Below, piece after piece: positions 15,090 to 29,678 of a DNA stretch of 64,000 nucleotides. Within the stretch, counting starts at the first letter, position 1. Every line of letters begins with the position of its first letter. The stretch covers positions 1 through 64,000 of the forward strand of contig NZ_JTFC01000042.1 of the NCBI RefSeq assembly GCF_003991225.1, read 5' to 3'. The position numbers were made by a program, and so were the translations under genes. This stretch comes from Candidatus Kurthia intestinigallinarum (GTDB taxonomy: Bacteria > Bacillota > Bacilli > Bacillales_A > Planococcaceae). The notes under the pieces are model-generated. The model made no database searches. It saw nothing but the letters and a program-made list of their open reading frames with translations, and was not told the DNA's origin.

Positions 15090-16535
15090 TTAGTCATGAA
15101 TACAAACAGATTTAGCATAAACATACTCATGAATACCTTCTGTACCATTTTCGCGACCAAAGCCAGAATGTTTTACGCCGCCAAATGGTGTTTCAGCTTG
15201 TGAAATCGCCATTGTATTAACACCGACCATTCCGTATTCAAGTGCACTTGAAAAGCGTGAAATACGTGCGATATTTTTTGAGAAAAAGTAAGAAGCTAAA
15301 CCAAATTCAGAATCATTTGCTGCTTCTGCTACTTCATCATCTGTTTCAAATTCGATTAATGGAATGACTGGACCAAATGTTTCTACATAGTAGATATCCA
15401 TATCTTTTGTAATACCATCAATGACAGTAGGTTCAATAAATGGACCATTTGCAAATTTTTCATCTTCAGGACGTTTACCACCATGTAAAATCGTCGCGCC
15501 TTTATCAGTCGCATCTTTTAACTGTGCTTCTACATGTTCGCGTGCTTCTTCATTAATTAATGGACCCACTGTTTTATCTTCGATGCCTAAGCCAACTTCA
15601 ACCGTTTTCATAGCTTCTAATAATTTTTCAGTAAATTCTTTTTTCACGGATTTTTGAACGTAAATACGGTTTGGTGAGACACATACTTGACCATTATTAC
15701 GGAATTTCGCTGTCACAAGGCTTGTTGCAGCTTGATCTAAATCTGCATCATCAAAGACGATAAATGGTGCATGTCCACCAAGTTCCATAGATACTTTTTT
15801 CAATGTACTAGCAGACTGTTCATTTAATAATTGGCCAACTTCTGTTGAACCTGTGAACGTAATTTTCTTCACTGTGTCATTCGTTGTTAATTCTTTACCG
15901 ATATCACTTGATTTACCCATCACAACGTTTGCAACACCTTTTGGTAATCCTGCTTCAACGAATAATTCAGCAAGAGCAAGTGCAGAAAATGGTGTCGCGC
16001 TCGCAGGTTTAATAACAACCGTACAACCAGCTGCCAGTGCAGGAGCAATTTTACGTGCAATCATGTTTGAAGGGAAGTTCCATGGCGTAATTGCGCCAAC
16101 AACGCCAAGCGGTTGATAAACGGTTAAGAAATGATGTTCACTTGGAGCGGGAATCGCACGACCATATAAGCGACGAGCTTCTTCTGCGTTCCAATGGAAA
16201 GAATCTGCAGAGGTTTGAACTTCTACTTTTGATTGAGAGAGTGGTTTTCCTTGTTCCAGTGTCATGATAAGCGCAAGGCGATCGAGGTTTTCTTCTATTA
16301 AAGAGCCAATTTTGTGTAAAATACGCGCGCGCTCTTTAGGATCCGTTGCAGCCCAGCCAGCAAAAGCTCCCTCTGCATAGGCAATAGCCTCAGCTGTCTC
16401 TTTTGTGCCACCTTGTGCAATATCAGCAATTTTTTCACCTGTAGATGGATTGTACACAGCAACAGCATCTTCGCTACCATCCACCCATTCGCCATTGATA
16501 AATAGTTGATTGTTTACTTCTGGAAATTTCATCAT
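15090..16535 (-). CDS. gabD: Succinate-semialdehyde dehydrogenase-type aldehyde dehydrogenase
   Basis: The 481-residue enzyme has PWNFPSNMIARKIAPALAAG, the FTGSTEVG nucleotide turn, catalytic Glu in MELGGHAPFIVF, catalytic Cys in NNGQVCVSPNR, and the ETFGPVIPLI and TPFGGVKHSGFGRENG motifs. The last motif and ELGGHAPFIVFDDADLD pattern are typical of GabD-type enzymes, which oxidise succinate semialdehyde to succinate with NAD(P). No gabT lies beside it, so the physiological aldehyde is inferred. AAGGAGGAG precedes the tandem ATG start. Confidence 0.85.
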   Translation of the reverse strand: MMKFPEVNNQLFINGEWVDGSEDAVAVYNPSTGEKIADIAQGGTKETAEAIAYAEGAFAGWAATDPKERARILHKIGSLIEENLDRLALIMTLEQGKPLSQSKVEVQTSADSFHWNAEEARRLYGRAIPAPSEHHFLTVYQPLGVVGAITPWNFPSNMIARKIAPALAAGCTVVIKPASATPFSALALAELFVEAGLPKGVANVVMGKSSDIGKELTTNDTVKKITFTGSTEVGQLLNEQSASTLKKVSMELGGHAPFIVFDDADLDQAATSLVTAKFRNNGQVCVSPNRIYVQKSVKKEFTEKLLEAMKTVEVGLGIEDKTVGPLINEEAREHVEAQLKDATDKGATILHGGKRPEDEKFANGPFIEPTVIDGITKDMDIYYVETFGPVIPLIEFETDDEVAEAANDSEFGLASYFFSKNIARISRFSSALEYGMVGVNTMAISQAETPFGGVKHSGFGRENGTEGIHEYVYAKSVCIHD

Positions 16536-18842: not shown

Positions 18843-20711
18843 ATGTCGATGTCACATCTCTCGTTATCGCTAAGTCAATCCTCGGAAATGTTTAGGCAAG
18901 AAATGATTAAATTATGTGCACGAATCCAGCCTTTTTATGTACTTTTTATGTTTGAACAAGATGAGCAACCTTACGATTATGTGAAGCTTTTTGAAACCTA
19001 TCAATCCATGGGAACCATTTTAAAATTAGAAAAAGAGAAAATTTTCCACACATCTGAAGTGTTTATTGTAAAAGAATCGGCTTATTTAGAAAATCAAGCA
19101 TTGTTTTTTCAGTTACGCGTCCGTGCACGGGAACGTTTAATTGAAAAGCTCGCAAAATCTGTTATTTTTTATGTTGTTAGTCAGCAACAGCATTTAAATT
19201 TAACATTGTTACAAGATCAGCACTTACTAGACGATTCATTAACGATTACAAAAAATGTCCTTAAAAAATGGACCTTTATCGGTGAGGAAAAAACATGGGA
19301 TGCATTCACTACATGGTATAGCGATACTTTGACGATGGCAATTTTAGAAGATATTGTCGTTGTAGAAGGGCTTAATTCGTTGAAAAAATTACCTGATAAA
19401 GCATTGAATGCATTATTTTTCGCTCACATGAACGATGTCGCGAATGATGAGACTTTTATTGATAAAATTTCACTTGTAGTTGACGACTATATTAAAGAGT
19501 GGCAGGAGCAAGTAATTCTTCTTTTAAAGAAGGATTTAGAAGTATATATTGAGGTCGAAAAAAGCGTAACACAAACAATGCAAAATGCACGCGATTTTTC
19601 ACAACTTGCAACAGTGCCTCATTATATGTATGTGATGAATAATACACTTTATCAAGTAATTCGAGAAGTGCTTTATCAATTAAACTCTTCCCAAACAGTC
19701 TATTCATTTCAAAAAGGAAAAACAAAAGGAACTTTATTTTTAAAAGAAGGACAAATAATTGATGCTACGATGGCTGTATTAGCGGTAGATGTTTTAGATA
19801 TTTTATGTGGTTTTTTCCTTCACCAGTCAGAAAACATGCAGAATATAGTCGAAATTCGTTTAACAGATATTTTAATGATGCGTGATATTAAGCAGAAATT
19901 AGGTGGAGAAGGACGACGAGGAGGCTACGAGGCAAAGCAAAAGCAACAAGTTCTAGCTGTTTTAGCATTGCTAAAAAATATCCATGTGGAGATTGAGCAA
20001 ATGGTCAGTTATCATACAAATCAACCGACGCCTTTAAAGTTGAAAGGACCATTACTCGTTTTTGAACAAGAATATTGCTATAAATTAGGTCCTATTTTTA
20101 CACCGTACTTGAGTGGTTCTCAGCGACAATTGGCATTATTACCATTTCGTGCATTTCATTATCATGTATATCGTTTTCGCCATGAAAAACAATTATGTCG
20201 ATATTTAAGTTGGCGCTGGCGTACACAAGCTTCGCAAGCAAAGTATTGGCAAGCGAATAAGGTGTCGACGCTACTAAAAGCTATTGGGGAAACCTTAAAT
20301 CAACGTTCACCTTCTCGAACACGTGAGCGTTTTGAAAAGGCACTCGATCAATTAACGACAGATGGTGTGATTGCAGGCTGGCATTATGTCAATTGGGATG
20401 AAGCTGTAGCGGTAGGCAAAGGCTGGGGGAATTATTGGCTCAATGCGGCAGTTATTATTGAACCGCCACAAGCGGTACTCGAAACATATCATTCACTTGA
20501 GAAAAAAAGAGTACCTATGACGACAACAAAAAAAGAGAATGAAGAATTTGCAAAGCAACTTGCCAATTTTCGTAAAAGCCAGCATCTGACGTTATCACAG
20601 GCAGGTGAGATGTTGCATGTGTCAGCTGCTTATATGAGTCAATTAGAGCGAAATATCGTTAGACCATCACTAAAATTACGCAAACGTTTAGAACGTTGGT
20701 TATTATCTTGA
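18843..20711 (+). CDS. Large protein with a C-terminal XRE helix-turn-helix, possible regulator of the acyl-CoA operon
   Basis: The 622-residue product starts at ATG 18843 (AGGGGG six bases before it; an earlier frame extension has no ribosome site). About residues 1-340 form no family I recognise. Around 354-395 a GGEGRRGGYEAKQKQQV segment followed by a hydrophobic helix looks like a winged-helix unit of some plasmid replication initiators; that is only a resemblance. The last 60 residues are an XRE domain (LTLSQAGEMLHVSAAYMSQLE). No signal peptide or membrane segment. It is separated by a terminator from the acyl-CoA operon and may regulate it, but no binding site is proven. Confidence 0.7.
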   Translation: MSMSHLSLSLSQSSEMFRQEMIKLCARIQPFYVLFMFEQDEQPYDYVKLFETYQSMGTILKLEKEKIFHTSEVFIVKESAYLENQALFFQLRVRARERLIEKLAKSVIFYVVSQQQHLNLTLLQDQHLLDDSLTITKNVLKKWTFIGEEKTWDAFTTWYSDTLTMAILEDIVVVEGLNSLKKLPDKALNALFFAHMNDVANDETFIDKISLVVDDYIKEWQEQVILLLKKDLEVYIEVEKSVTQTMQNARDFSQLATVPHYMYVMNNTLYQVIREVLYQLNSSQTVYSFQKGKTKGTLFLKEGQIIDATMAVLAVDVLDILCGFFLHQSENMQNIVEIRLTDILMMRDIKQKLGGEGRRGGYEAKQKQQVLAVLALLKNIHVEIEQMVSYHTNQPTPLKLKGPLLVFEQEYCYKLGPIFTPYLSGSQRQLALLPFRAFHYHVYRFRHEKQLCRYLSWRWRTQASQAKYWQANKVSTLLKAIGETLNQRSPSRTRERFEKALDQLTTDGVIAGWHYVNWDEAVAVGKGWGNYWLNAAVIIEPPQAVLETYHSLEKKRVPMTTTKKENEEFAKQLANFRKSQHLTLSQAGEMLHVSAAYMSQLERNIVRPSLKLRKRLERWLLS

Positions 20712-20755: not shown

Positions 20756-20769
20756 TAAAAGCGCTTACA
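20756..20769 (+). promoter_or_regulatory. Possible CcpA catabolite-response element
   Basis: TAAAAGCGCTTACA differs at one position from the Bacillus cre pattern TGAAAGCGCTTACA. It lies about 240 bp upstream of the acyl-CoA operon start. Catabolite repression would suit a degradation pathway, but the distance is large, so this is tentative. The rest of 20770-21006 holds a TATGAT -10-like element near 20950 and no gene. Confidence 0.4.
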
Positions 20770-21006: not shown

Positions 21007-23175
21007 ATGACACAAAATTTACAAAATTATGAATCATTGAAGCCGTTGTTTAACCCACAGTCTATTGCGATTTTAGGTGCCTCTGAGAGCCCCTATAAAA
21101 TCGGCCATCTTCAAATTCGCGCATTAATTGATGGTAAATTTAAAGGCGATATTATTCCAATCCATCGTACGGCAAAAGAAATTGCGGGCTTAACATGTTA
21201 CCCATCATTAGCAGATGTACCAGGTGAAGTGGATCTTGTTATTTTCTGCCTTGGTCTAGAACAAATTAAAGAAGGTCTTGAAGCGTGTGCAGCAAAAAAT
21301 GTAAAAGCGGCGATTATTTTTGCTTCAGGTTTTTCAGAAGCAGGGGCATATGGTGAGCAACTGCAGCAAGAACTTGGTCAATTCGCAAAAACACACGGCA
21401 TTCGTATCGTAGGACCAAACTGTGTAGGCTTAGTGAACACAGAGAATGGCTTGATTGGCACATTTACGCCATCATTTTTAACTGTACCACTCGATGGTCA
21501 GCGAGGCGTCGGTTATATTTCGCAAAGTGGCGCTTTTGGTGTATTAACGTATATGGCAGCCGCACAGCATGGTATTAACTTTAACTATTTTGTTAGTACA
21601 GGGAATGAAATGGAGTCCAGCTTTGAAGATTTCATGGAATATATGGTACATGATCCGCAAACGAATATTATTAGTGGTTACTTAGAAGGTGCTAAAAATC
21701 CAGAAAAATTGAAAGCGTTATCAAAAGAGTCTCTTCAAAAAAATAAGCCAATTTTATTGATGAAAACAGGTAAGAGCTCGGCTGGTAGTCGTGCAGCTGC
21801 ATCTCATACAGGTTCACTTGCAGGCTCAGATAAAATCTATGATGCCTTTTTTAAACAGCATGGCATTATTCGTGCAGAGGATTTTGATGATGTTATCGGT
21901 TTTACGAAATTATTTAATCCCAATAAATTACCTAAAGGAAATAATACAGTCATTATTACAAGTTCAGGTGGTCGTGGCATTAATGAGGCGGACCGTTGTG
22001 AAGCACATGGTTTAAACATTGTGGAGCTATCTGCTGAAACACAGGCGGCTATTCAAAAGAGCTTGCCGGACTATGCGAGCACAACGAACCCAGTTGATTT
22101 AACAGCTGCCGCAATGGTATCGAACCCGGAGTTTTATTTGGAGCCATTAAAAGTACTTGTAAATGATCCGGAAGTTCATAATATTATCTTTACTGATTTC
22201 CCATATGCTTGGGATGAAAATTCACCGCAGCTACAAGAATTTATTGAATTAAGTAAGGCGAGTGACAAAGTCATTGGGTTATTCCCATTCCCACTCGATG
22301 GTATGACCTATCCAAAAGCGACAAAAGCTTTAGTAGAAAACGGTATTGCGGTTGTACCATGTAATCTAAATCCAGTGCGCGCACTGAAGAAGCTAGTGGA
22401 ATATAGTGAGGCATATCGACAATCTTCGATTACTTCACTAGCAGATTATCGTCAACCACATGCGGTATTAGATGATTTATTAGTATCAGGTGAAACGTTG
22501 AGTGAAGCACAGGCAAGTGAAGTGCTGGCACGCTATGATATTCCAACAACAGAGCGTCGTATTGCGACATCACTTGAGGAAGCGGTAGAGCATGCAACAG
22601 CGATAGGATACCCAGTCGTGCTAAAAATTGATTCACCAGATATTCCACACAAGACAGAAGCAGACGCAATTCGGTTAAATGTACAAACACCAGAAGAAGT
22701 GAGTCAAGCGTATGTGGAAATTGTGAAAAATGCGCGAAGCTACAACCCAGAGGCACGTGTCCATGGCGTTTCTGTACAGGAGATGTTGGGTGAAGGTGTT
22801 GAAATAATTATCGGTGCACATAATGACAGCACATTTGGGCCAGTAATTATGGTGGGACTTGGTGGTATTTTCGTTGAAGTATTCCAAGATATCGCTTTTA
22901 AAGTAGCACCAATCAATCGTCAAGATGCATTGAATTTACTTGATGAATTAAAAGGAAAATCAATTTTACATGGTGCGCGTGGAAAAACGCCAATAGATAC
23001 AGAGGCAATTGTCGATGTTCTGTTAAAAGTATCGGCACTCATGATAGACCATGGAGAGCAGATTCAAGAGCTTGATATTAATCCACTTGTTGTATACGAA
23101 AAAGGTATTAGGGCAGCGGATGCGATGCTTGTTGTGAAAGAGCAACAAGTGATTCGACAAGCGATGGAGGGATAG
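21007..23175 (+). CDS. Acyl-CoA synthetase, NDP-forming (ATP-grasp)
   Basis: This 722-residue protein has a CoA-binding domain (SIAILGASESPYKIGHLQIRAL), a succinyl-CoA ligase-like domain with the phospho-His candidate His267 (ASHTGSLAG), and a C-terminal ATP-grasp domain (YPVVLKIDSPDIPHKTE, GLGGIFVEVFQD). It matches ADP-forming acetyl/acyl-CoA synthetases, which activate an acid or regain ATP from an acyl-CoA. ATG 21007 is chosen over the TTG at 21004 by spacing from AGGGGG. It is the first gene of a seven-gene unit, 2 bp before the next. Its position suggests it activates the substrate or recovers energy from a product. Confidence 0.85.
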   Translation: MTQNLQNYESLKPLFNPQSIAILGASESPYKIGHLQIRALIDGKFKGDIIPIHRTAKEIAGLTCYPSLADVPGEVDLVIFCLGLEQIKEGLEACAAKNVKAAIIFASGFSEAGAYGEQLQQELGQFAKTHGIRIVGPNCVGLVNTENGLIGTFTPSFLTVPLDGQRGVGYISQSGAFGVLTYMAAAQHGINFNYFVSTGNEMESSFEDFMEYMVHDPQTNIISGYLEGAKNPEKLKALSKESLQKNKPILLMKTGKSSAGSRAAASHTGSLAGSDKIYDAFFKQHGIIRAEDFDDVIGFTKLFNPNKLPKGNNTVIITSSGGRGINEADRCEAHGLNIVELSAETQAAIQKSLPDYASTTNPVDLTAAAMVSNPEFYLEPLKVLVNDPEVHNIIFTDFPYAWDENSPQLQEFIELSKASDKVIGLFPFPLDGMTYPKATKALVENGIAVVPCNLNPVRALKKLVEYSEAYRQSSITSLADYRQPHAVLDDLLVSGETLSEAQASEVLARYDIPTTERRIATSLEEAVEHATAIGYPVVLKIDSPDIPHKTEADAIRLNVQTPEEVSQAYVEIVKNARSYNPEARVHGVSVQEMLGEGVEIIIGAHNDSTFGPVIMVGLGGIFVEVFQDIAFKVAPINRQDALNLLDELKGKSILHGARGKTPIDTEAIVDVLLKVSALMIDHGEQIQELDINPLVVYEKGIRAADAMLVVKEQQVIRQAMEG

Positions 23176-23177
23176 TA

Positions 23178-23627
23178 ATGAGTTTAGCACATTTAATTGG
23201 AAAAACAGGAAAACCTTATACAGTAGAAATTGAAAAACGTCATATTCGTCAGTTTGCAGAGGCAATCGGGGATACAAACCCGCTTTATCGTGATGAGGAA
23301 TTTGCAAAAACAACGGTACATGGTGGTATTATTGCACCGCCAACATTCCCAATTGCGATGTCAGAAGAAAGTGAAGAGGAGTTAGATTTAGGATTAGATT
23401 ATAGCCGTATGTTACACGGGGAGCAGCGCTTTATTTATACGCGTGCAATCCGCCCAGGGGATGTATTAACATGCCAATTAAAAGTGACGGATGTATATGA
23501 ACGTGACGGTAAAAATGGAACGATGGAATTTATTGTGATGGATACGGAAATGACAGACGAGGCGGGACAGCATGTTGTCACAAGTCGTACAAATATTATT
23601 TATCGTCCGATTTCGGCGAATGCATAA
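23178..23627 (+). CDS. MaoC-like dehydratase subunit, N-terminal type, lacking the catalytic His
   Basis: The product is 149 residues with the FAS1-like dehydratase/MaoC N-terminal fold (YTVEIEKRHIRQFAEAIGD, VHGGIIAPPTFPIAM). In active hydratases the motif reads GD.NPLHxD; here it is GDTNPLYRD with Tyr37 in the His place while Asp32 remains. That is expected for the structural half of a heteromeric enoyl-CoA hydratase whose partner carries the active site. The partner would be the next gene, 12 bp downstream. In the mycobacterial ChsH1-ChsH2 pair this half belongs to ChsH2. Confidence 0.75.
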   Translation: MSLAHLIGKTGKPYTVEIEKRHIRQFAEAIGDTNPLYRDEEFAKTTVHGGIIAPPTFPIAMSEESEEELDLGLDYSRMLHGEQRFIYTRAIRPGDVLTCQLKVTDVYERDGKNGTMEFIVMDTEMTDEAGQHVVTSRTNIIYRPISANA

Positions 23628-23639
23628 GGAGGAATGACG

Positions 23640-24053
23640 ATGCTAGAACTAGCACAGTTAACAACAGGGCAGGAACTTCCTGCTTATATAAAGGAGCCTG
23701 TGACAAAAGTACAGCTCGTAAAATATGCGGGAGCCTCAGGAGATTTTAACCCGCTTCATACAGATGATGCATTTGCACAAAAAATTGGGATGCCTGGTGT
23801 TATTGCACATGGCATGCTCATCATGGGTTTCTTAGGAGAATACGTCAATCATCTTGCAGGAACTCTTGCAACGGTAAAAGATTTTAGTATGCGTTTTGGT
23901 GCGATGACATTTCCGAAAGATACGATCACATGTCGAGGCGTGATTAAAGAAACGTATGAAAAAGACGGTTCACGCTTTGCGGTGCTGACATTATATGCAG
24001 AAAAAGGTCCAGAAAAAATCGTTGGTTCAGGAGAGGCAACGCTACAATTTTAA
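23640..24053 (+). CDS. MaoC-like (R)-specific enoyl-CoA hydratase subunit with intact catalytic Asp-His
   Basis: ATG 23640 is chosen because AAGGAGG (23626-23632) lies 7 bases before it; an ATG at 23634 is too close. The 137-residue protein has the hotdog-fold motif ASGDFNPLHTDD with Asp35 and His40, then PGVIAHGMLIMGFLGEYV. These residues activate water to hydrate a 2-enoyl-CoA. It follows the His-lacking partner directly, so the two likely form one active heteromer. Confidence 0.82.
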   Translation: MLELAQLTTGQELPAYIKEPVTKVQLVKYAGASGDFNPLHTDDAFAQKIGMPGVIAHGMLIMGFLGEYVNHLAGTLATVKDFSMRFGAMTFPKDTITCRGVIKETYEKDGSRFAVLTLYAEKGPEKIVGSGEATLQF

Positions 24054-24071
24054 GTCGAAGGAGTGTTATGG

Positions 24072-25235
24072 ATGAATCAAATTCGAGATAAATACGCCAT
24101 CGTAGGTGTTGGTGAAAGTAAACGTTCAAAAAATTCAGGAACGACACCGTTACATTTAGCATTAGATGCGGCTCGTGCAGCTATTGCAGATGCAGGAATT
24201 GAAGCAAAAGAAATCGATGGCTTTATGAGCTATTGTGAAAATGATTCTTGCTCACCGCATCAATTAGCAACCTATTTAGGTGTACGACCAAACTATGTTA
24301 AAGAAATTTTGGGGGGCGGTAGTAGTACGGAAATGCTAATTGCAGATGCTGTTGCTTTAATTGAAACAGGCCAGGCGAATACAGTGCTCATTTATCGCTC
24401 GATGAATGGACGCTCTGGTATGCGTATGGGAGGCGGTGGCTGGAGTAGTGATTTATTGCAATCAGCCTTTGATGGCGGCAGCTACATCATTCCATATGGC
24501 GCGGCAAGTCCAGGGCAATGGTTTGGTTTATTCGCTACGCGTCATATGAAGCAAAATGGCTTAACACAAGAGCATTTAGGTCATGTATGTACAAGCTTCT
24601 ATGAACATGCACAGCGTAATCCAAATGCCTTCTTCTATGGTAAACCATTAACAATGGAAGAATATCTACAAACGGCGCAGCTAAGCTCACCGTTTACAAA
24701 ACATGATTTTTGCTTAGAGTCGGACGAAGCGAATGCGATTATCGTCACAAGTGCTGAACGTGCAAAAGATTGCCAGTCAAAACCCGCTTATATTATGGGG
24801 ATGGCTGCTCGTCGCGCGGTATCTCATGCACATTACTGGAAAAACATTGATGAAGTGGCGTCTGATTATGTCGCACAGCCGTTATACGAAGCGGCAGGTG
24901 TCGGGCCAAAAGACATTGATATTGCATCGATTTACGATTGCTTTAGCTGGGTGGTATTACGCCAATTAGAAGCATATGGTCTTGCTCCCAAAGGCGAATT
25001 AGGGGACTTTGTCGCTGCAGGAAACTTGAAAATTGATGGACAACTTCCGACAAACTTAGCGGGCGGAATGCTGTCAGAAGGTTATACACATGGTATGAAT
25101 AATGTATTAGAAATTGTCCGCCAAGTGCGCGGTGAATATGAAGGAACAGAACGTCAGGCGAAAAAACATGATATCGCGATTTGTACAGGCTGGGCAGGTC
25201 CGGATATGGCTGGCGCAATGATTTTACGAAAATAG
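24072..25235 (+). CDS. Thiolase-fold protein lacking the thiolase cysteine, Ltp2-like retro-aldolase candidate
   Basis: This 387-residue protein has the SCP2-thiolase fold (YAIVGVGES start, GGMLSEGYTHGMNN near the end). The segment that should carry the nucleophilic Cys reads EILGGGSSTEML, without Cys. It keeps two Tyr, Tyr288 in SIYDCFSW and Tyr338 in SEGYTHGMNN, spaced 50 apart, as I recall for the catalytic Tyr pair of actinobacterial Ltp2 aldolases. Those split a beta-hydroxyacyl-CoA by retro-aldol cleavage with a DUF35 partner, encoded here by the next gene. ATG 24072 fits AAGGAG at 24058-24063. Confidence 0.8.
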   Translation: MNQIRDKYAIVGVGESKRSKNSGTTPLHLALDAARAAIADAGIEAKEIDGFMSYCENDSCSPHQLATYLGVRPNYVKEILGGGSSTEMLIADAVALIETGQANTVLIYRSMNGRSGMRMGGGGWSSDLLQSAFDGGSYIIPYGAASPGQWFGLFATRHMKQNGLTQEHLGHVCTSFYEHAQRNPNAFFYGKPLTMEEYLQTAQLSSPFTKHDFCLESDEANAIIVTSAERAKDCQSKPAYIMGMAARRAVSHAHYWKNIDEVASDYVAQPLYEAAGVGPKDIDIASIYDCFSWVVLRQLEAYGLAPKGELGDFVAAGNLKIDGQLPTNLAGGMLSEGYTHGMNNVLEIVRQVRGEYEGTERQAKKHDIAICTGWAGPDMAGAMILRK

Positions 25236-25246
25236 GGGGAGTTCAC

Positions 25247-25681
25247 ATGATTGAAGAAACAAAAGTAGAATACGCGAAACCAATTCCATTAAAAACAATC
25301 GACAATGCACCGTACTGGGATGCGGCGGATCGTCATGAGCTTGTACTTCAAAAATGTACGAGCTGTAATACCTATGCACATCCACCAGGCCCAGCATGTG
25401 CTCATTGTGGAAGCCAGGAGCTTGTGTGGGAAAACCGAGGAACGGAAATTAGTGGCACAATTTATACGTATGTCGTTTCTTATCGTCCATTTTTACCAGG
25501 CTTTGAAAATGATATGCCGTTAGTGATTGCGGTTGTTGAACTCGATGAATTACCAGAAGTCAAAATTATTGGCAATGTCTTAGAGGCAACAGTCGAGCAA
25601 ATTGATATTGGAACACCAGTAAAAATGGTGTGGCAAGACATTACAGAGGATCGTGCGTTGCCACAATGGACGCTCGCATAA
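25247..25681 (+). CDS. DUF35 OB-fold / Zn-ribbon protein, partner of the thiolase-fold protein
   Basis: The product is 144 residues. The rubredoxin-like Zn ribbon is formed by Cys37, Cys40, Cys51 and Cys54 (KCTSCN and CAHCG), followed by an OB fold (SGTIYTYVVSYRPFLPGFE). DUF35 proteins bind acyl-CoA and hold thiolases in an active state; in Mycobacterium the same domain is fused to the hydratase as the ChsH2 C-terminus. ATG 25247 follows AGGGGGA; it starts 11 bp after the thiolase gene ends. Confidence 0.88.
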   Translation: MIEETKVEYAKPIPLKTIDNAPYWDAADRHELVLQKCTSCNTYAHPPGPACAHCGSQELVWENRGTEISGTIYTYVVSYRPFLPGFENDMPLVIAVVELDELPEVKIIGNVLEATVEQIDIGTPVKMVWQDITEDRALPQWTLA

Positions 25682-25699
25682 GGTTGAGGAGGAAACGCG

Positions 25700-26893
25700 A
25701 TGGATTTTTCATATACAGCACAGGAAGAACAATTTCGACAGGAGTTACGTACATGGCTTGAAGAAAACCTTCCAGAGGGATGGCTAGCGTCGCAACAACT
25801 ACCGTCAGAGGAAGCAGAGCTAGGTCAATTTTTACGTAAGTGGCAAAAAACATTAGCCGATAGCCGCTGGGCAGCGATTGCATGGCCTGAGAAACATGGT
25901 GGACGTAATGCGACACTGATGGAGGAAATTATTTACCATCAAGAAATGGTTCGTGTGAAAGCGCCACCACTTGTAAACTATGTGGGGCTTCATATGGTTG
26001 GACCAACCTTGATGCAAATCGGAACACCTGAACAACAGGAAAAATACATCCCGAAAATTTTAACAGGAGAAGAAGTGTGGTGCCAAGGCTATTCAGAGCC
26101 AAATGCAGGTTCGGATTTAGCAGCTGTACAAACGACGGCCGTTAAAAAAGGGGACAAGTGGGTGATTAATGGTCAAAAAATTTGGACAAGCTTTGCTCAC
26201 TTTGCAGACCGGTGCTTCCTTGTTGCACGTACGAGTAAAGGGGAGAAAAAGCATCATGGCATTACATGCTTCTTACTGGATATGAATCAACCTGGTGTAG
26301 AAGTACGCCCGATTATTCAAATGAATGGTGAGCATGATTTTAATGAAGTGTATTTAACGGATGCAGTAGCCTATGACAGCGAAATTATCGGACAAGTAGA
26401 TGATGGTTGGCGTGTGACGATTGCGTTATTAATGCATGAACGTACAGGCATTGGTGCTCAAGTATTTTCACTTGAACAGCAATTTGCAGAGCTTGTGAAT
26501 GTAGCTCAAACGGTTACAGAGGATGACCAACCATTGATTGCGAAACCAGAAGTACGTAAGCGTCTACTTGACTTATATATGAATCAACGTGGCTCGTTAT
26601 TAAATTATTATCGCAATTTAACAAAGCAGCTAAAAGTGGGACATCCGGGTGTAGAAGGCTCGATGGATAAATTATTCGTTAGTGAAATGACGAAAAAATT
26701 ATTCTCAGAAGCTATTTCAATTCAAGGTCACGCGGGAATGCTGTGGGAAGAAGATGCTGTACAAGACCAGGGTTATTGGCAGAAAAATTATTTGTATTCA
26801 TTTGGTCAAACAATCGGTGGTGGTACGAGCGAGATTCAAAAAAATACGATTGCGGAGCGCATCTTAGGCTTACCAAAAGATGTCGGTCGCTAG
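25700..26893 (+). CDS. Acyl-CoA dehydrogenase, subunit A of a probable heteromer
   Basis: This 397-residue flavoprotein has YSEPNAGSDLAAVQT, the ADxQ-like FAD/substrate segment IWTSFAHFADRCFLVARTS, and the C-terminal GGGTSEIQKNTIAERILGLP. The C-terminal catalytic Glu of MCAD-type enzymes (E before GTSxIQ) is Gly here. A Glu in LLMHERTGIG sits where isovaleryl-type enzymes keep theirs. With the adjacent unlike paralogue it resembles the FadE28/FadE29-type heterotetramers of steroid-catabolising actinobacteria, each subunit holding part of the site. Starts 18 bp after the DUF35 gene. Confidence 0.85.
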   Translation: MDFSYTAQEEQFRQELRTWLEENLPEGWLASQQLPSEEAELGQFLRKWQKTLADSRWAAIAWPEKHGGRNATLMEEIIYHQEMVRVKAPPLVNYVGLHMVGPTLMQIGTPEQQEKYIPKILTGEEVWCQGYSEPNAGSDLAAVQTTAVKKGDKWVINGQKIWTSFAHFADRCFLVARTSKGEKKHHGITCFLLDMNQPGVEVRPIIQMNGEHDFNEVYLTDAVAYDSEIIGQVDDGWRVTIALLMHERTGIGAQVFSLEQQFAELVNVAQTVTEDDQPLIAKPEVRKRLLDLYMNQRGSLLNYYRNLTKQLKVGHPGVEGSMDKLFVSEMTKKLFSEAISIQGHAGMLWEEDAVQDQGYWQKNYLYSFGQTIGGGTSEIQKNTIAERILGLPKDVGR

Positions 26894-26911
26894 AAGGGTT
26901 GGTGAAGGTCG

Positions 26912-28078
26912 ATGGATTTTTCATTAAACGAAGATCAAGAGTTATTTCGAAAATTTGTACGTAAATATCTTAATGACCAAGAGCAAACGAAAGTAGCGCG
27001 CGATTATATTGCAGGAAATGTCGAAGCAGTGAAGCAAGCAATTACAGGTGTTAATGAGCTTGGCTGTATGATGGTAAATATTCCAGATGATTATGATGGC
27101 ATGGGTTTAGGTAAACTTGATCTTGTGCCAATTATGGAAGAGTTTGGCCGCACATTAATGCCAGGTGTCTTTTTAGAGACAAGTGCCTTTGCTGTGCCAA
27201 TTATTAATCAGTTTGCGACAACGGAGCAAAAGCAACAGTATTTATCAGAAGTCGCAAGTGGTGAAAAAGCGTTCACCATTGCCTGGCTAGAGCCTAGTAG
27301 AAGTTATACAGAAAAAGGCATTCAATTAGAAGCTATACTTGAGCAAGAACAATTTACGCTAAATGGTATGAAGACGCAAGTAGCCGATGTGGCATTTGCA
27401 CAGTACCTTATTGTACCGGTACGTGTTAACGGTGAAGTGAGTATTATTGTGGTAGATAAGGAGACGCCAGGCCTTACAATCACAGCGCAAAAAGGCTTTG
27501 ATGAAACACGTCAGCTATCAAGTATTTATTTTGATAATGTGACGGTGCCAATTAGTGCGTTAATCGGACCACTTGGAGATGGTTGGGGAATCCTTCAAGA
27601 AGGTTTGTTATCGTATAATGCGGCTGTATCATCCGTTTGCGTCGGTGCGATGGAAAAAATTATTGAAGTGGCGAGTGAATATGCATGTATTCGTGAACAG
27701 TTTGGGCAAGCAATTGGGCGCTACCAAGCCATTAAGCATCGTCTAGCAGATATGAAGCTGTCACTTGAAACAGCACGTTCACTCTCTTATTATGCAAACT
27801 GGGCACTTGAAACAACATCGGAGGATCGTGTAGAAGCTATTTGTAGTGCACGTATTTTTGCGACGCAAGCCTTTGTTGAAATTGCCGCGCATAATATTCA
27901 AATTCATGGTGGTATCGGCTTCACTGAAGAAATTGATTGCCACTTATTTGTGAAGCGTTCACGTTTCTACGAAAATTACTTAGGTACACAAGCGCAGTAC
28001 TATGACCAAGCCATTTCGGCACTTGGTTGGGATGCAGCAACTAAAGCCAAAGAACATGAAAATTTACTGATTTCTTAA
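26912..28078 (+). CDS. Acyl-CoA dehydrogenase, divergent subunit B of a probable heteromer
   Basis: The 388-residue protein has the acyl-CoA dehydrogenase fold (FSLNEDQELFRKFVRKYL, FTIAWLEPS) but lacks the EPNAGSD form and the C-terminal GGGTSEIQ box; the equivalent end reads RSRFYENYLGTQAQYYD. IREQFGQAIGRYQAIKHRLADM is the conserved FAD-binding helix, and HGGIGFTEEIDCHLF follows. Such divergent members pair with an ordinary subunit to share FAD sites. It is the last gene of the operon, 18 bp after subunit A; a terminator follows at 28104. Confidence 0.83.
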   Translation: MDFSLNEDQELFRKFVRKYLNDQEQTKVARDYIAGNVEAVKQAITGVNELGCMMVNIPDDYDGMGLGKLDLVPIMEEFGRTLMPGVFLETSAFAVPIINQFATTEQKQQYLSEVASGEKAFTIAWLEPSRSYTEKGIQLEAILEQEQFTLNGMKTQVADVAFAQYLIVPVRVNGEVSIIVVDKETPGLTITAQKGFDETRQLSSIYFDNVTVPISALIGPLGDGWGILQEGLLSYNAAVSSVCVGAMEKIIEVASEYACIREQFGQAIGRYQAIKHRLADMKLSLETARSLSYYANWALETTSEDRVEAICSARIFATQAFVEIAAHNIQIHGGIGFTEEIDCHLFVKRSRFYENYLGTQAQYYDQAISALGWDAATKAKEHENLLIS

Positions 28079-28161: not shown

Positions 28162-28190
28162 GTTGAAAATTTTATTTCGAGGTGAAGTCG

Positions 28191-29603
28191 ATGTTTAAAA
28201 CAAATCGTACAGTTGAATCGATGTCCTATAAACAAAAAGCTCTGCTTGTCGCTGGAATTTTCTTATGTATGGAATTAGGACTCATGGTGTCTATGGAGTT
28301 TTCAATTGCTCTGCCTAGCATTATTACAGACATTGGCGGAGCGGAGTTTTATGCGCTTATTTTCACGGTTAATCTTGCTGTATCTGCAATTGTTACACCC
28401 TTTGTTGGTAAATTGAGTGATATTTATGGACGACGTCAAATTTTAATTATTGGTATTTTAATTATTTTAGTATCGGAAGTGATTACACCACTACTCGTTT
28501 CAAACGTCTATCATCTGATGATTTTTAGAGGTATTCAAGGAATCGGTGGTGCCACGACGGCTGTTGTCGCATTAATTGTCATTAGCGATATTTTTGACAT
28601 CGAAAATCGTGCGAAATTTTTAGGCTTCTATGGATCATTAAATGCACTGACAGCTATTATTGCGCCTACAGTAGGTGGAATTTTTGTACAATACTTCTCA
28701 TGGCATTGGGTATTTTATTCAATCGCACCGGTAGGCCTTATTGGCTTAATTATTATTTTGAAATTAATGCCAAATATTCCGAAAGTAGAACGTGCCAAGA
28801 TGGATTATCTAGGAGCAAGTATTCTATCCGTTTCTATTTTATCATTGGTGGGCTTAACATCTTTTGGAAGTCCAACCGTTACGCCTGTACTACTTGTTGT
28901 ATTAGCAGTTAGTTTAGTTGCATTTATTATTCGTCAAAAGAAAAGTGCAGATCCATTAATTCCATTACGCTTATTTAAGCATCGTATTTTTACAATTTGT
29001 ATCTTAGCGAGTATGGCATGCATGTTTGCGGCAACAGGAATGATTTATTTCTTACCACTGTTTTTACAAAATATTCATGGTTTCTCACCGACAGAAACCG
29101 GTATTTTTATGACAGAAAGAGGCATTACATCGTTTATTTTCGCAGCAATAAGCGGTTTTATTGTAGCAAAATTGAAGGATTTTAAGCTTGTTGCGATTGT
29201 GGCAATGTGTATTTTTGCAAGTATGATTTTTGTATTAACATTCTTTACAGTATCAGCACCAACGATTATAATCACCGCTATTTTTCTTGTGTGGGGGAGT
29301 TCAAGTGGGGTATTAATTTCTATTTTCCATACAGGTATTCAAATGAATTTACCTACAAAAGAAATTAGTGTAGCGATGAGTGTTATGCAATTAGCGGTTA
29401 GTATGGGTGCCTTACTAGCAACGTCTTTACTAGGCATGTTCGTGCAAACTGAAAATTTAAGCCAAGGATTTAGCTACTTACTGTATACTTGTTTAGCGGT
29501 TGTAATTGTGACGTTAGTTGCTTTTGTAATTGTCGTACCAAAAAAGAAGCAAGTTGTTGCGCCAATTCCCGCAGAACTAGAGAAAAGTATTCCAGAAAGC
29601 TAA
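28191..29603 (+). CDS. MFS multidrug-type transporter (14 TM)
   Basis: The product is about 470 residues, hydrophobic throughout. GKLSDIYGRRQILIIGI is MFS motif A, FRGIQGIGGATTAVVALIV and APTVGGIFVQYFSWHW are motifs B and C of drug:H+ antiporters. The start is ATG 28191 with GAGGTG six bases before it. It follows the acyl-CoA operon in the same direction but is separated by a terminator, so co-regulation is uncertain. The substrate is unknown. Confidence 0.86.
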   Translation: MFKTNRTVESMSYKQKALLVAGIFLCMELGLMVSMEFSIALPSIITDIGGAEFYALIFTVNLAVSAIVTPFVGKLSDIYGRRQILIIGILIILVSEVITPLLVSNVYHLMIFRGIQGIGGATTAVVALIVISDIFDIENRAKFLGFYGSLNALTAIIAPTVGGIFVQYFSWHWVFYSIAPVGLIGLIIILKLMPNIPKVERAKMDYLGASILSVSILSLVGLTSFGSPTVTPVLLVVLAVSLVAFIIRQKKSADPLIPLRLFKHRIFTICILASMACMFAATGMIYFLPLFLQNIHGFSPTETGIFMTERGITSFIFAAISGFIVAKLKDFKLVAIVAMCIFASMIFVLTFFTVSAPTIIITAIFLVWGSSSGVLISIFHTGIQMNLPTKEISVAMSVMQLAVSMGALLATSLLGMFVQTENLSQGFSYLLYTCLAVVIVTLVAFVIVVPKKKQVVAPIPAELEKSIPES

Positions 29604-29646: not shown

Positions 29647-29678
29647 AAAGGCATCGCGCCAACGCGCGATGCCTTTTT
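29647..29678. terminator. Terminator between MFS gene and chemoreceptor gene
   Basis: AAAGGCATCGCGC/GCGCGATGCCTTT forms a 13-bp perfect stem with a CAAC loop and T5. It serves both convergent genes. Confidence 0.88.

Follow-up and report, generated by a model that had tools for sequence, protein, structure and literature searches.

A conserved acyl-CoA operon of Bacillales that probably encodes a retro-aldol chain-shortening cycle

Introduction

By what chemistry, and on what kind of acid, does the seven-gene acyl-coenzyme A (CoA) operon at positions 21007–28078 of Candidatus Kurthia intestinigallinarum contig NZ_JTFC01000042.1 act? In the parts of the literature covered, the characterised cases of retro-aldol acyl-CoA shortening are steroid pathways of Actinobacteria and Proteobacteria, and the first-pass annotation had read this locus as an igr-like operon in which the protein ChsH2 is split into two genes. 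We analysed bases 1–64000 of the contig (hereafter the window) within a host genome of 3.93 Mb. We conclude, with a probability of roughly 0.7, that the operon serves to shorten the chain of a carboxylic acid by a retro-aldol ('aldolytic') cycle, most likely with an aldehyde as product, a reading that is built on sequence comparison. The enzyme classes, the active-site residues and the conserved module of the earlier reading stood; descent from ChsH proteins and the split of ChsH2 were not supported.

Results

A thiolase-fold protein with a composite active site

The operon consists of seven open reading frames (ORFs) that run in one direction, with intergenic gaps of 2, 6, 18, 11, 18 and 18 bp, as first described (seven co-directional genes, gaps of 2–18 bp):

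21007–23175, + strand: NDP(ADP)-forming acyl-CoA synthetase, P0001 (Pfam, NCBIfam and PDB matches)
23178–23627, + strand: MaoC subunit A, P0002, with Tyr37 in place of His (Pfam, PDB match, tree, residue check)
23634–24053, + strand: MaoC subunit B, P0003, with catalytic Asp37/His42 (Pfam, PDB match, tree, residue check)
24072–25235, + strand: putative thiolase-fold retro-aldolase, Ltp2/Sal-like, P0004, with Tyr288/Cys290/Tyr338 (PDB match, alignment, tree, model)
25247–25681, + strand: DUF35 partner, P0005, zinc ribbon and OB fold, CxxC-x10-CxxC (Pfam, PDB match, residue check)
25700–26893, + strand: acyl-CoA dehydrogenase (ACAD) alpha subunit ACAD1, P0006, with Glu247 (Pfam, PDB, tree, residue check)
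26912–28078, + strand: ACAD beta subunit ACAD2, P0007, without Glu at either of the two known catalytic positions (Pfam, PDB, tree, residues)

Pfam matches of the seven proteins were ATP-grasp_5 and Succ_CoA_lig; FAS1_DH_region/MaoC_dehydratas twice; Thiolase_C_1; zf-ChsH2 and OB_ChsH2_C; and two acyl-CoA dehydrogenases. PDB matches and residue checks bear out the earlier claim that the enzyme classes, and the way active-site residues are divided among subunits, are those of the igr set. For the ligase P0001 the closest solved structure is an ADP-forming 4-hydroxybutyrate–CoA ligase (382 bits), and every NCBIfam match was under the cut-off.

The top single-sequence PDB matches of P0004 and P0005 are the two chains of one complex, the Ltp2–ChsH2(DUF35) aldolase 6ok1 (6ok1_A, Ltp2, 243.6 bits; 6ok1_B, 89.5 bits), and an AlphaFold model of P0004 (pLDDT 86) matched the fold of 6ok1 first (TM 0.89/0.90) and that of Sal, 9myr, next. 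A passage of PMC12329534 names Tyr294/Tyr344 of TcLtp2 and Tyr302/Cys304 of CtSal as catalytic. In our alignment of 52 sequences, Tyr288 of P0004 corresponds to TcLtp2 Tyr294, Cys290 to CtSal Cys304 and Tyr338 to TcLtp2 Tyr344, and the nucleophile site reads GGGSS, with Gly in the Cys column, where two true thiolases have EAACAS. We compared these positions across 31 loci, defined by an aldolase identity of at least 66%; loci named here come from the best 80 matches of an aldolase scan. All 31 orthologs have Gly in the nucleophile column together with Tyr288, Asp289, Cys290 and Tyr338. Loss of the nucleophilic Cys and retention of the catalytic Tyr of YDxF (Tyr288) are the marks of the Ltp2/Sal type. 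The label 'Cys-less' given at first therefore suits the nucleophile and not the protein, which keeps Cys290 within a YDCF/YDCY motif at every locus.

Finer features set P0004 apart from both relatives. It keeps the equivalent of Tyr344, and its motif is YDC[FY] in place of the YDHF of steroid Ltp2; it has Tyr338 where CtSal has Gln, and its DUF35 partner carries CxxC-x10-CxxC (four Cys in 31/31 orthologs) instead of Cys3His1. As judged from the alignment, the active site of P0004 is one that joins Sal and Ltp2 residues. In the tree of the same 52 rows the window aldolase stands in a separate 18-row clade (100/100), and the Bacillales clade, which includes a betaproteobacterial sequence (locus L107), has support of 100/100 on a stem of 0.85. 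TcLtp2 groups with Nocardia farcinica, Vibrio alfacsensis, Rhodococcus rhodochrous and an Erythrobacteraceae metagenome-assembled genome (MAG) in a clade of its own (100/99), and the Bacillales and TcLtp2 clades join within a 36-row clade (99/97). The earlier equation with Ltp2 is not supported by this tree, in which the window protein lies outside the TcLtp2 clade.

A conserved gene order in Bacillales

At least 31 loci carry the module, in Kurthia, Solibacillus, Lysinibacillus, Sporosarcina, Bhargavaea, Bacillus, Neobacillus, Peribacillus, Cytobacillus, Mesobacillus, Oceanobacillus and Virgibacillus. Among the matches listed, the nearest named aldolase is that of Kurthia huakuii (97%). A search for the same order in other Bacillales had been set as a check, and tblastn found the six core genes in identical order at 30 of 31 loci and all seven, including the NDP-forming ligase, at 20; the MaoC pair is placed after the ACADs in Lysinibacillus odysseyi. 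With this order kept at 30 loci, the arrangement is not one of chance. At 30 of 31 loci some kind of CoA-ligase-like gene is found no further than 8.5 kb from the aldolase gene. In a draw of 250 genomes from the host's family, 101 had a match at E≤0.001, and 42, the host included, had one of at least 67% identity. The suggestion of an undescribed, conserved Bacillales module is upheld on both counts: the core order is kept, and we found no description of the module in open-licence PMC literature.

Outside the Bacillales, the betaproteobacterial MAG (L107:6765–11598) encodes an aldolase (55% identity), an NDP-forming ligase (37%) and a DUF35 protein (40%) within 5 kb; the remaining module genes were not found in the 15.5 kb covered.

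Putatively heteromeric dehydrogenase and hydratase pairs

The best PDB match of P0006 is 4x28_A (168.9 bits), which we take to be ChsE4–ChsE5. P0007 is matched better by the ordinary short-chain-type ACAD 1ukw (141.7 bits) than by 6wy8_A (77.9 bits), presumably FadE28–FadE29-like, which speaks against the igr assignment as far as ACAD2 by itself is concerned. The pair fares differently. Glu247 of ACAD1 is present in 31/31 orthologs, and 4x28_A also has Glu in that column; ACAD2 lacks Glu at 357 and at 235, the column of Glu247, in 31/31, and igr-type beta rows likewise have none there. A passage of PMC11153573 assigns the catalytic Glu to the alpha subunit and none to beta. In a tree of 40 rows with several long branches, ACAD1 groups with the alpha subunits (a clade of 17 rows, 100/100) and ACAD2 with the beta subunits (15 rows, 100/99); both clades include the igr-like enzymes of N. 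farcinica and Vibrio, and the Bacillales sequences form sub-clades of their own. The genome has eight other ACADs, of which seven lie outside both clades; the eighth, L171, belongs to the alpha clade. With Glu in alpha, none in beta and both grouping with ChsE clades, the pattern is that of a ChsE-type alpha2beta2 enzyme, and the pair is igr-like as first described.

These data bear on the most conventional reading, ordinary thiolytic beta-oxidation, as for fatty acids or branched-chain amino acids, in which the thiolase has degenerated. ACADs, a hydratase and a thiolase-fold protein are indeed all encoded, and ACAD2 alone is nearest to ordinary ACADs; but the nucleophile is gone at every locus, no 3-hydroxyacyl-CoA dehydrogenase is found among the seven genes, and the ACAD pair groups with heteromeric enzymes, apart from most other ACADs of the genome. 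This reading is disfavoured, and we regard it as highly improbable.

The MaoC subunits show the same division of labour in their residues. Subunit A keeps Asp in 31/31 orthologs and has Tyr (30/31) or Phe (1/31) for His, which confirms the 'His-less MaoC' of the first-pass annotation; subunit B conserves both Asp and His (31/31). One Asp/His subunit with a Tyr-for-His partner is the residue pattern of ChsH1–ChsH2, and ChsH2 carries Tyr for His according to a passage of PMC11321319. By analogy with ChsH2, subunit A would be of the inert, substrate-holding type. Ancestry is another matter. Among solved structures P0002 and P0003 are closest to 4v12/5i7n and Had-type proteins and score lower against ChsH1/ChsH2 chains, and in a tree of 32 rows (short, weakly resolved and with long branches) the window pair stands outside the clades that hold ChsH1 and ChsH2. 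By these comparisons the pair is not of ChsH1/ChsH2 descent, contrary to the initial assignment.

Nor is there a fused MaoC–DUF35 gene of the ChsH2 kind, the two parts being encoded at 23178–23627 and 25247–25681. This had been taken as a split of ChsH2. Separate genes for both MaoC subunits and DUF35 also occur on R. rhodochrous pGD02.2.1, in Dehalococcoidia/Chloroflexi MAGs and in a second Bacillales module (below), and a passage of PMC12502768 describes MaoC and DUF35 working as separate proteins. The N. farcinica locus, an igr locus as far as its ORFs can be read, has a fused gene, and V. alfacsensis has an OB-fold protein whose 323 codons match such a fusion in length. As separate MaoC and DUF35 genes are no rarity, a split within the Bacillales lineage is not shown.

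A linked aldehyde dehydrogenase and a probable aldehyde product

On the strand of the aldolase gene and within 8.5 kb of it, 25 of 31 loci carry an aldehyde dehydrogenase (ALDH) gene, 24 of type A and one of type B, both types being of the Aldedh family. The type-A ALDHs on the aldolase strand (25 genes, including one that sits further downstream at L080) are 56–69% identical to the reference copy. Type B stands inside the module of a relative from the host's family (L035) and, divergently transcribed, beside the regulator in another genome of the host genus (L033); the host's own type-B gene is on another contig (C186) and is 71% identical to the L033 copy and 68% to the L035 copy. In the aldolytic bile-acid step, as a passage of PMC8399759 describes it, Sal acts first and the aldehyde dehydrogenase Sad next. 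Linkage at 25 loci suggests that the cut releases an aldehyde, as Sal does for Sad, and fits such a cut better than the ketone-yielding one of igr. Genes for electron-transfer flavoprotein (ETF) adjoin the module at 8 of 31 loci. The window also holds a further ALDH gene (15090–16535, - strand), whose product is merely 28% identical to the module-type ALDH-B.

The thiolase-fold/DUF35 pair might instead catalyse another C–C reaction, decarboxylation or a biosynthetic aldol condensation, in which case the substrate would be an aldehyde and the ALDH would act on it ahead of the ligase. Related thiolase folds in the PDB do vary (PhlC, benzoylsuccinyl-CoA thiolase, acetoacetyl-CoA thiolase), and the order of steps cannot be read from the position of the ALDH gene. 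The Tyr/Cys/Tyr set, however, matches two known retro-aldolases, the acyl-carrying Cys is lacking, and the CoA ligase and ACADs indicate breakdown; we consider this alternative unlikely.

From the observed residue patterns and gene linkage we infer the following steps for an aldolytic cycle. The single-chain NDP-forming ligase would, by its family, convert the acid to acyl-CoA. An alpha2beta2-type ACAD, with ACAD1 catalytic and ACAD2 structural to go by their residues, would yield 2-enoyl-CoA and pass electrons to ETF. The two MaoC subunits, as a heteromeric hydratase with catalysis in B and the substrate held by A, would then give 3-hydroxyacyl-CoA, from which the Ltp2/Sal-like aldolase with DUF35 would release acetyl-CoA, or propionyl-CoA from a 2-methyl-branched chain, together with a carbonyl compound that is most likely an aldehyde. 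The ALDH, which adjoins the module in most relatives and is encoded on another contig in the host, would oxidise this to the shortened acid.

Several observations weigh against this proposal. For the aldolase, a profile search (A1) puts 6ok1 and Sal 9myr behind 4u4e, an entry titled simply 'Thiolase'; we know of no characterised member of the Bacillales aldolase clade, and with a stem of 0.85 the reaction could have changed. No test of the combination of Cys290 with Tyr338 was found in the parts of the literature covered. Two other ACADs of the same genome also have Glu at the 247 position, so that Glu247 alone is not diagnostic of igr-type ACADs. The ALDH gene is not adjacent to the module in the window, and none lies within 8.5 kb at 6 of 31 loci (L078, L080, L087, L089, L099 and L104); the enzyme may also act upstream, supplying the acid for the ligase. 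Finally, 9 of 398 genomes in a class-wide draw match at E≤1e-60, every one in the host's family, and the module is thus patchy.

The substrate and the steroid question

Since an inert MaoC subunit and a heteromeric ACAD are inferred from steroid enzymes to go with bulky substrates, their analogy here suggests a bulky or branched acyl group. The first-pass annotation had found no steroid ring genes. Family searches of the host genome gave no match to KshA_C (PF19298), Ring_hydroxyl_A (PF00848), Dioxygenase_C (PF00775), LigB (PF02900) or PaaA_PaaC (PF05138), of which PF19298 alone is steroid-specific; the earlier statement holds for these five ring-degradation families, with glyoxalase-type extradiol enzymes and KstD outside the search. 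With no match to any of the five, a steroid pathway in the host genome was rejected. Across the 42 module genomes, KshA_C scored above its curated cut-off in 7, aligned to the first 62–79 of 207 positions, and had no match in 35.

A genuine igr or Sal/Shy module for steroid or bile-acid side chains within Bacillales would account for the steroid aldolases 6ok1 and 9myr being among the three closest solved structures, and for the identical subunit logic seen in the residue checks. The partial KshA_C matches point the same way, as does one linked OFA-type major facilitator superfamily (MFS) protein that scored 212.7 of 400 on a bile-salt transporter model, far under the cut-off. Against it stand the position of the aldolase outside the TcLtp2 clade, the C4 finger of DUF35 where Shy has Cys3His1, and the failure of ring-degradation families to match in the host and of KshA_C to match in most module genomes. 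We judge it distinctly unlikely.

Two further substrates were considered and rejected. For phenylpropanoids no link was found, and the four aromatic families among the five searched gave no match in the genome; the top model for ALDH-B is a benzaldehyde dehydrogenase, under the cut-off (324 and 318 of 550), and the phd pathway of C. glutamicum is beta-oxidative, not retro-aldol, according to a passage of PMC5479773. For betaine aldehyde, ALDH-A reached 411 of 669 on a BADH-like model, under the cut-off, and nothing else supported it.

A module conserved in several Bacillales genera, and present in a genome (the host's) where none of the five ring-degradation families was matched, suggests that aldolytic chemistry serves other acids too. 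The operon offers a small, testable protein set, including a predicted Tyr/Cys/Tyr active site, for finding the substrate.

A second module in some of the same genomes

A second aldolase (about 40% identity, E<1e-60) is encoded in 5 of the 250 family genomes (G133, G181, G230, G165 and G155). The first module is present in every one of them, a result with a chance of 1.1e-4 under an assumed independence that genomes from two genera do not have, in a test conceived post hoc. Its gene set comprises FadD, ACAD, MaoC, MaoC, aldolase, DUF35, ACAD, three CaiB-type proteins and two enoyl-CoA hydratases, and its aldolase has a YDAF motif and the Tyr344 equivalent. We saw it at L057–L060 and L155, and its first genes at L089 and L104, always in genomes that have the first module too. 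In Neobacillus citreus and Mesobacillus persicus it begins some 4 kb downstream, separated from the first module by a ligase-like and an MFS gene; Neobacillus kokaensis has both modules. The joint occurrence lends weak support to a two-stage, non-steroid aldolytic pathway for an isoprenoid or branched acid, in which the module studied here (aldehyde, then ALDH) would be followed by the 12-gene second module, in parallel to the Sal-then-igr order known for bile-acid side chains. We offer this tentatively and hold it doubtful.

Related gene sets were seen elsewhere. Dehalococcoidia/Chloroflexi MAGs (L113, L115) have an ACAD–MaoC–MaoC–aldolase–DUF35 order and then a second aldolase, with further DUF35 and ACAD genes in L113; the L115 sequence ends earlier. 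The V. alfacsensis plasmid pVa1 (L160:7500–14710) has an igr-like set with an OB-fold protein, a MaoC, a lipid-transfer protein and several ACADs.

Flanking genes and sites

Three further features adjoin the operon:

18843–20711, + strand: probable regulator with a C-terminal XRE-type helix–turn–helix (HTH), from a 639-codon ORF (open from 18792) upstream of the operon (HTH_3/HTH_31)
20756–20769, no strand: palindromic cre-like site TAAAAGCGCTTACA, one mismatch (motif scan; suggestive only)
28182–29603, + strand: DHA2/EmrB-type MFS transporter (family matches)

HTH_3/HTH_31 was matched in 17/17 scanned members of the regulator family (E up to 1); outside the C-terminal HTH, Pfam matches are weak and scattered. 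The family occurs at 21 of 31 module loci (19 of the reg40 type and 2 of the reg18792 type), downstream of the module in Sporosarcina, and a PucR-type regulator takes its place at 8 others. The top fold match of a regulator model (pLDDT 80, pTM 0.54) is to domains 2–3 of RctB, and as this match is weak (E 1.0e-3) the model yields no clue to the substrate.

The upstream site was scanned with what we take to be the cre consensus. The window holds 8 cre-like matches, a count reached by 7 of 100 shuffles; a similar palindrome lies near -250 at L078 and L079, and a scan of 16 upstream regions left 9 without any match within 2 mismatches. As a general feature of the module the site was rejected, the count not being clearly beyond chance and those nine regions being without it.

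The MFS gene begins 103 bp past the seventh ORF, and a hairpin that scores as a - strand terminator (29647–29676) lies 3' of it; on this layout it may be the last gene of an operon of eight. It also adjoins the module in K. huakuii and Solibacillus merdavium.

Comparison with known systems

The window set resembles the actinobacterial igr operon (ChsE1–ChsE2, ChsH1–ChsH2, Ltp2) and Comamonas ORF40–44 in its heteromeric-type ACAD pair, its MaoC pair with one His-to-Tyr subunit and its Ltp2-like aldolase with a C4 DUF35 protein. It differs from igr in that the aldolase forms its own clade, with YDCF for YDHF, and the MaoC pair is apparently of other descent; DUF35 is a separate gene, the ligase lies inside the operon, an ALDH gene is linked in relatives, and KshA_C was not found in the host genome.

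With the proteobacterial Sal/Shy/Sad system of bile-acid deacetylation (CtSal, 9myr) it shares the Cys of YDCF/YDCY and, by analogy, a retro-aldol step that would probably yield an aldehyde, with an ALDH present in relatives. Unlike Sal/Shy, it has Tyr338 for CtSal Gln352, a MaoC pair for the homomeric Shy, and a C4 for a Cys3His1 finger.

The mycobacterial Had-type dehydratases, presumably of mycolate synthesis, are with 4v12/5i7n the nearest solved relatives of the MaoC pair. Subunit B has the YAGxSGDxNPxH motif of these enzymes; unlike theirs, the window MaoC genes lie in a CoA-catabolism operon, and subunit A has Tyr.

By description, the ibuprofen IpfDE thiolase, whose IpfE we take to be a DUF35 protein, is also alike in propionyl-CoA release, within a pathway that has ipfA and other genes. 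That release is assigned to ipfDE in a passage of PMC9195938. Overall, the Bacillales module would work like igr and Sal, and by the residues and clades compared here it belongs to neither.

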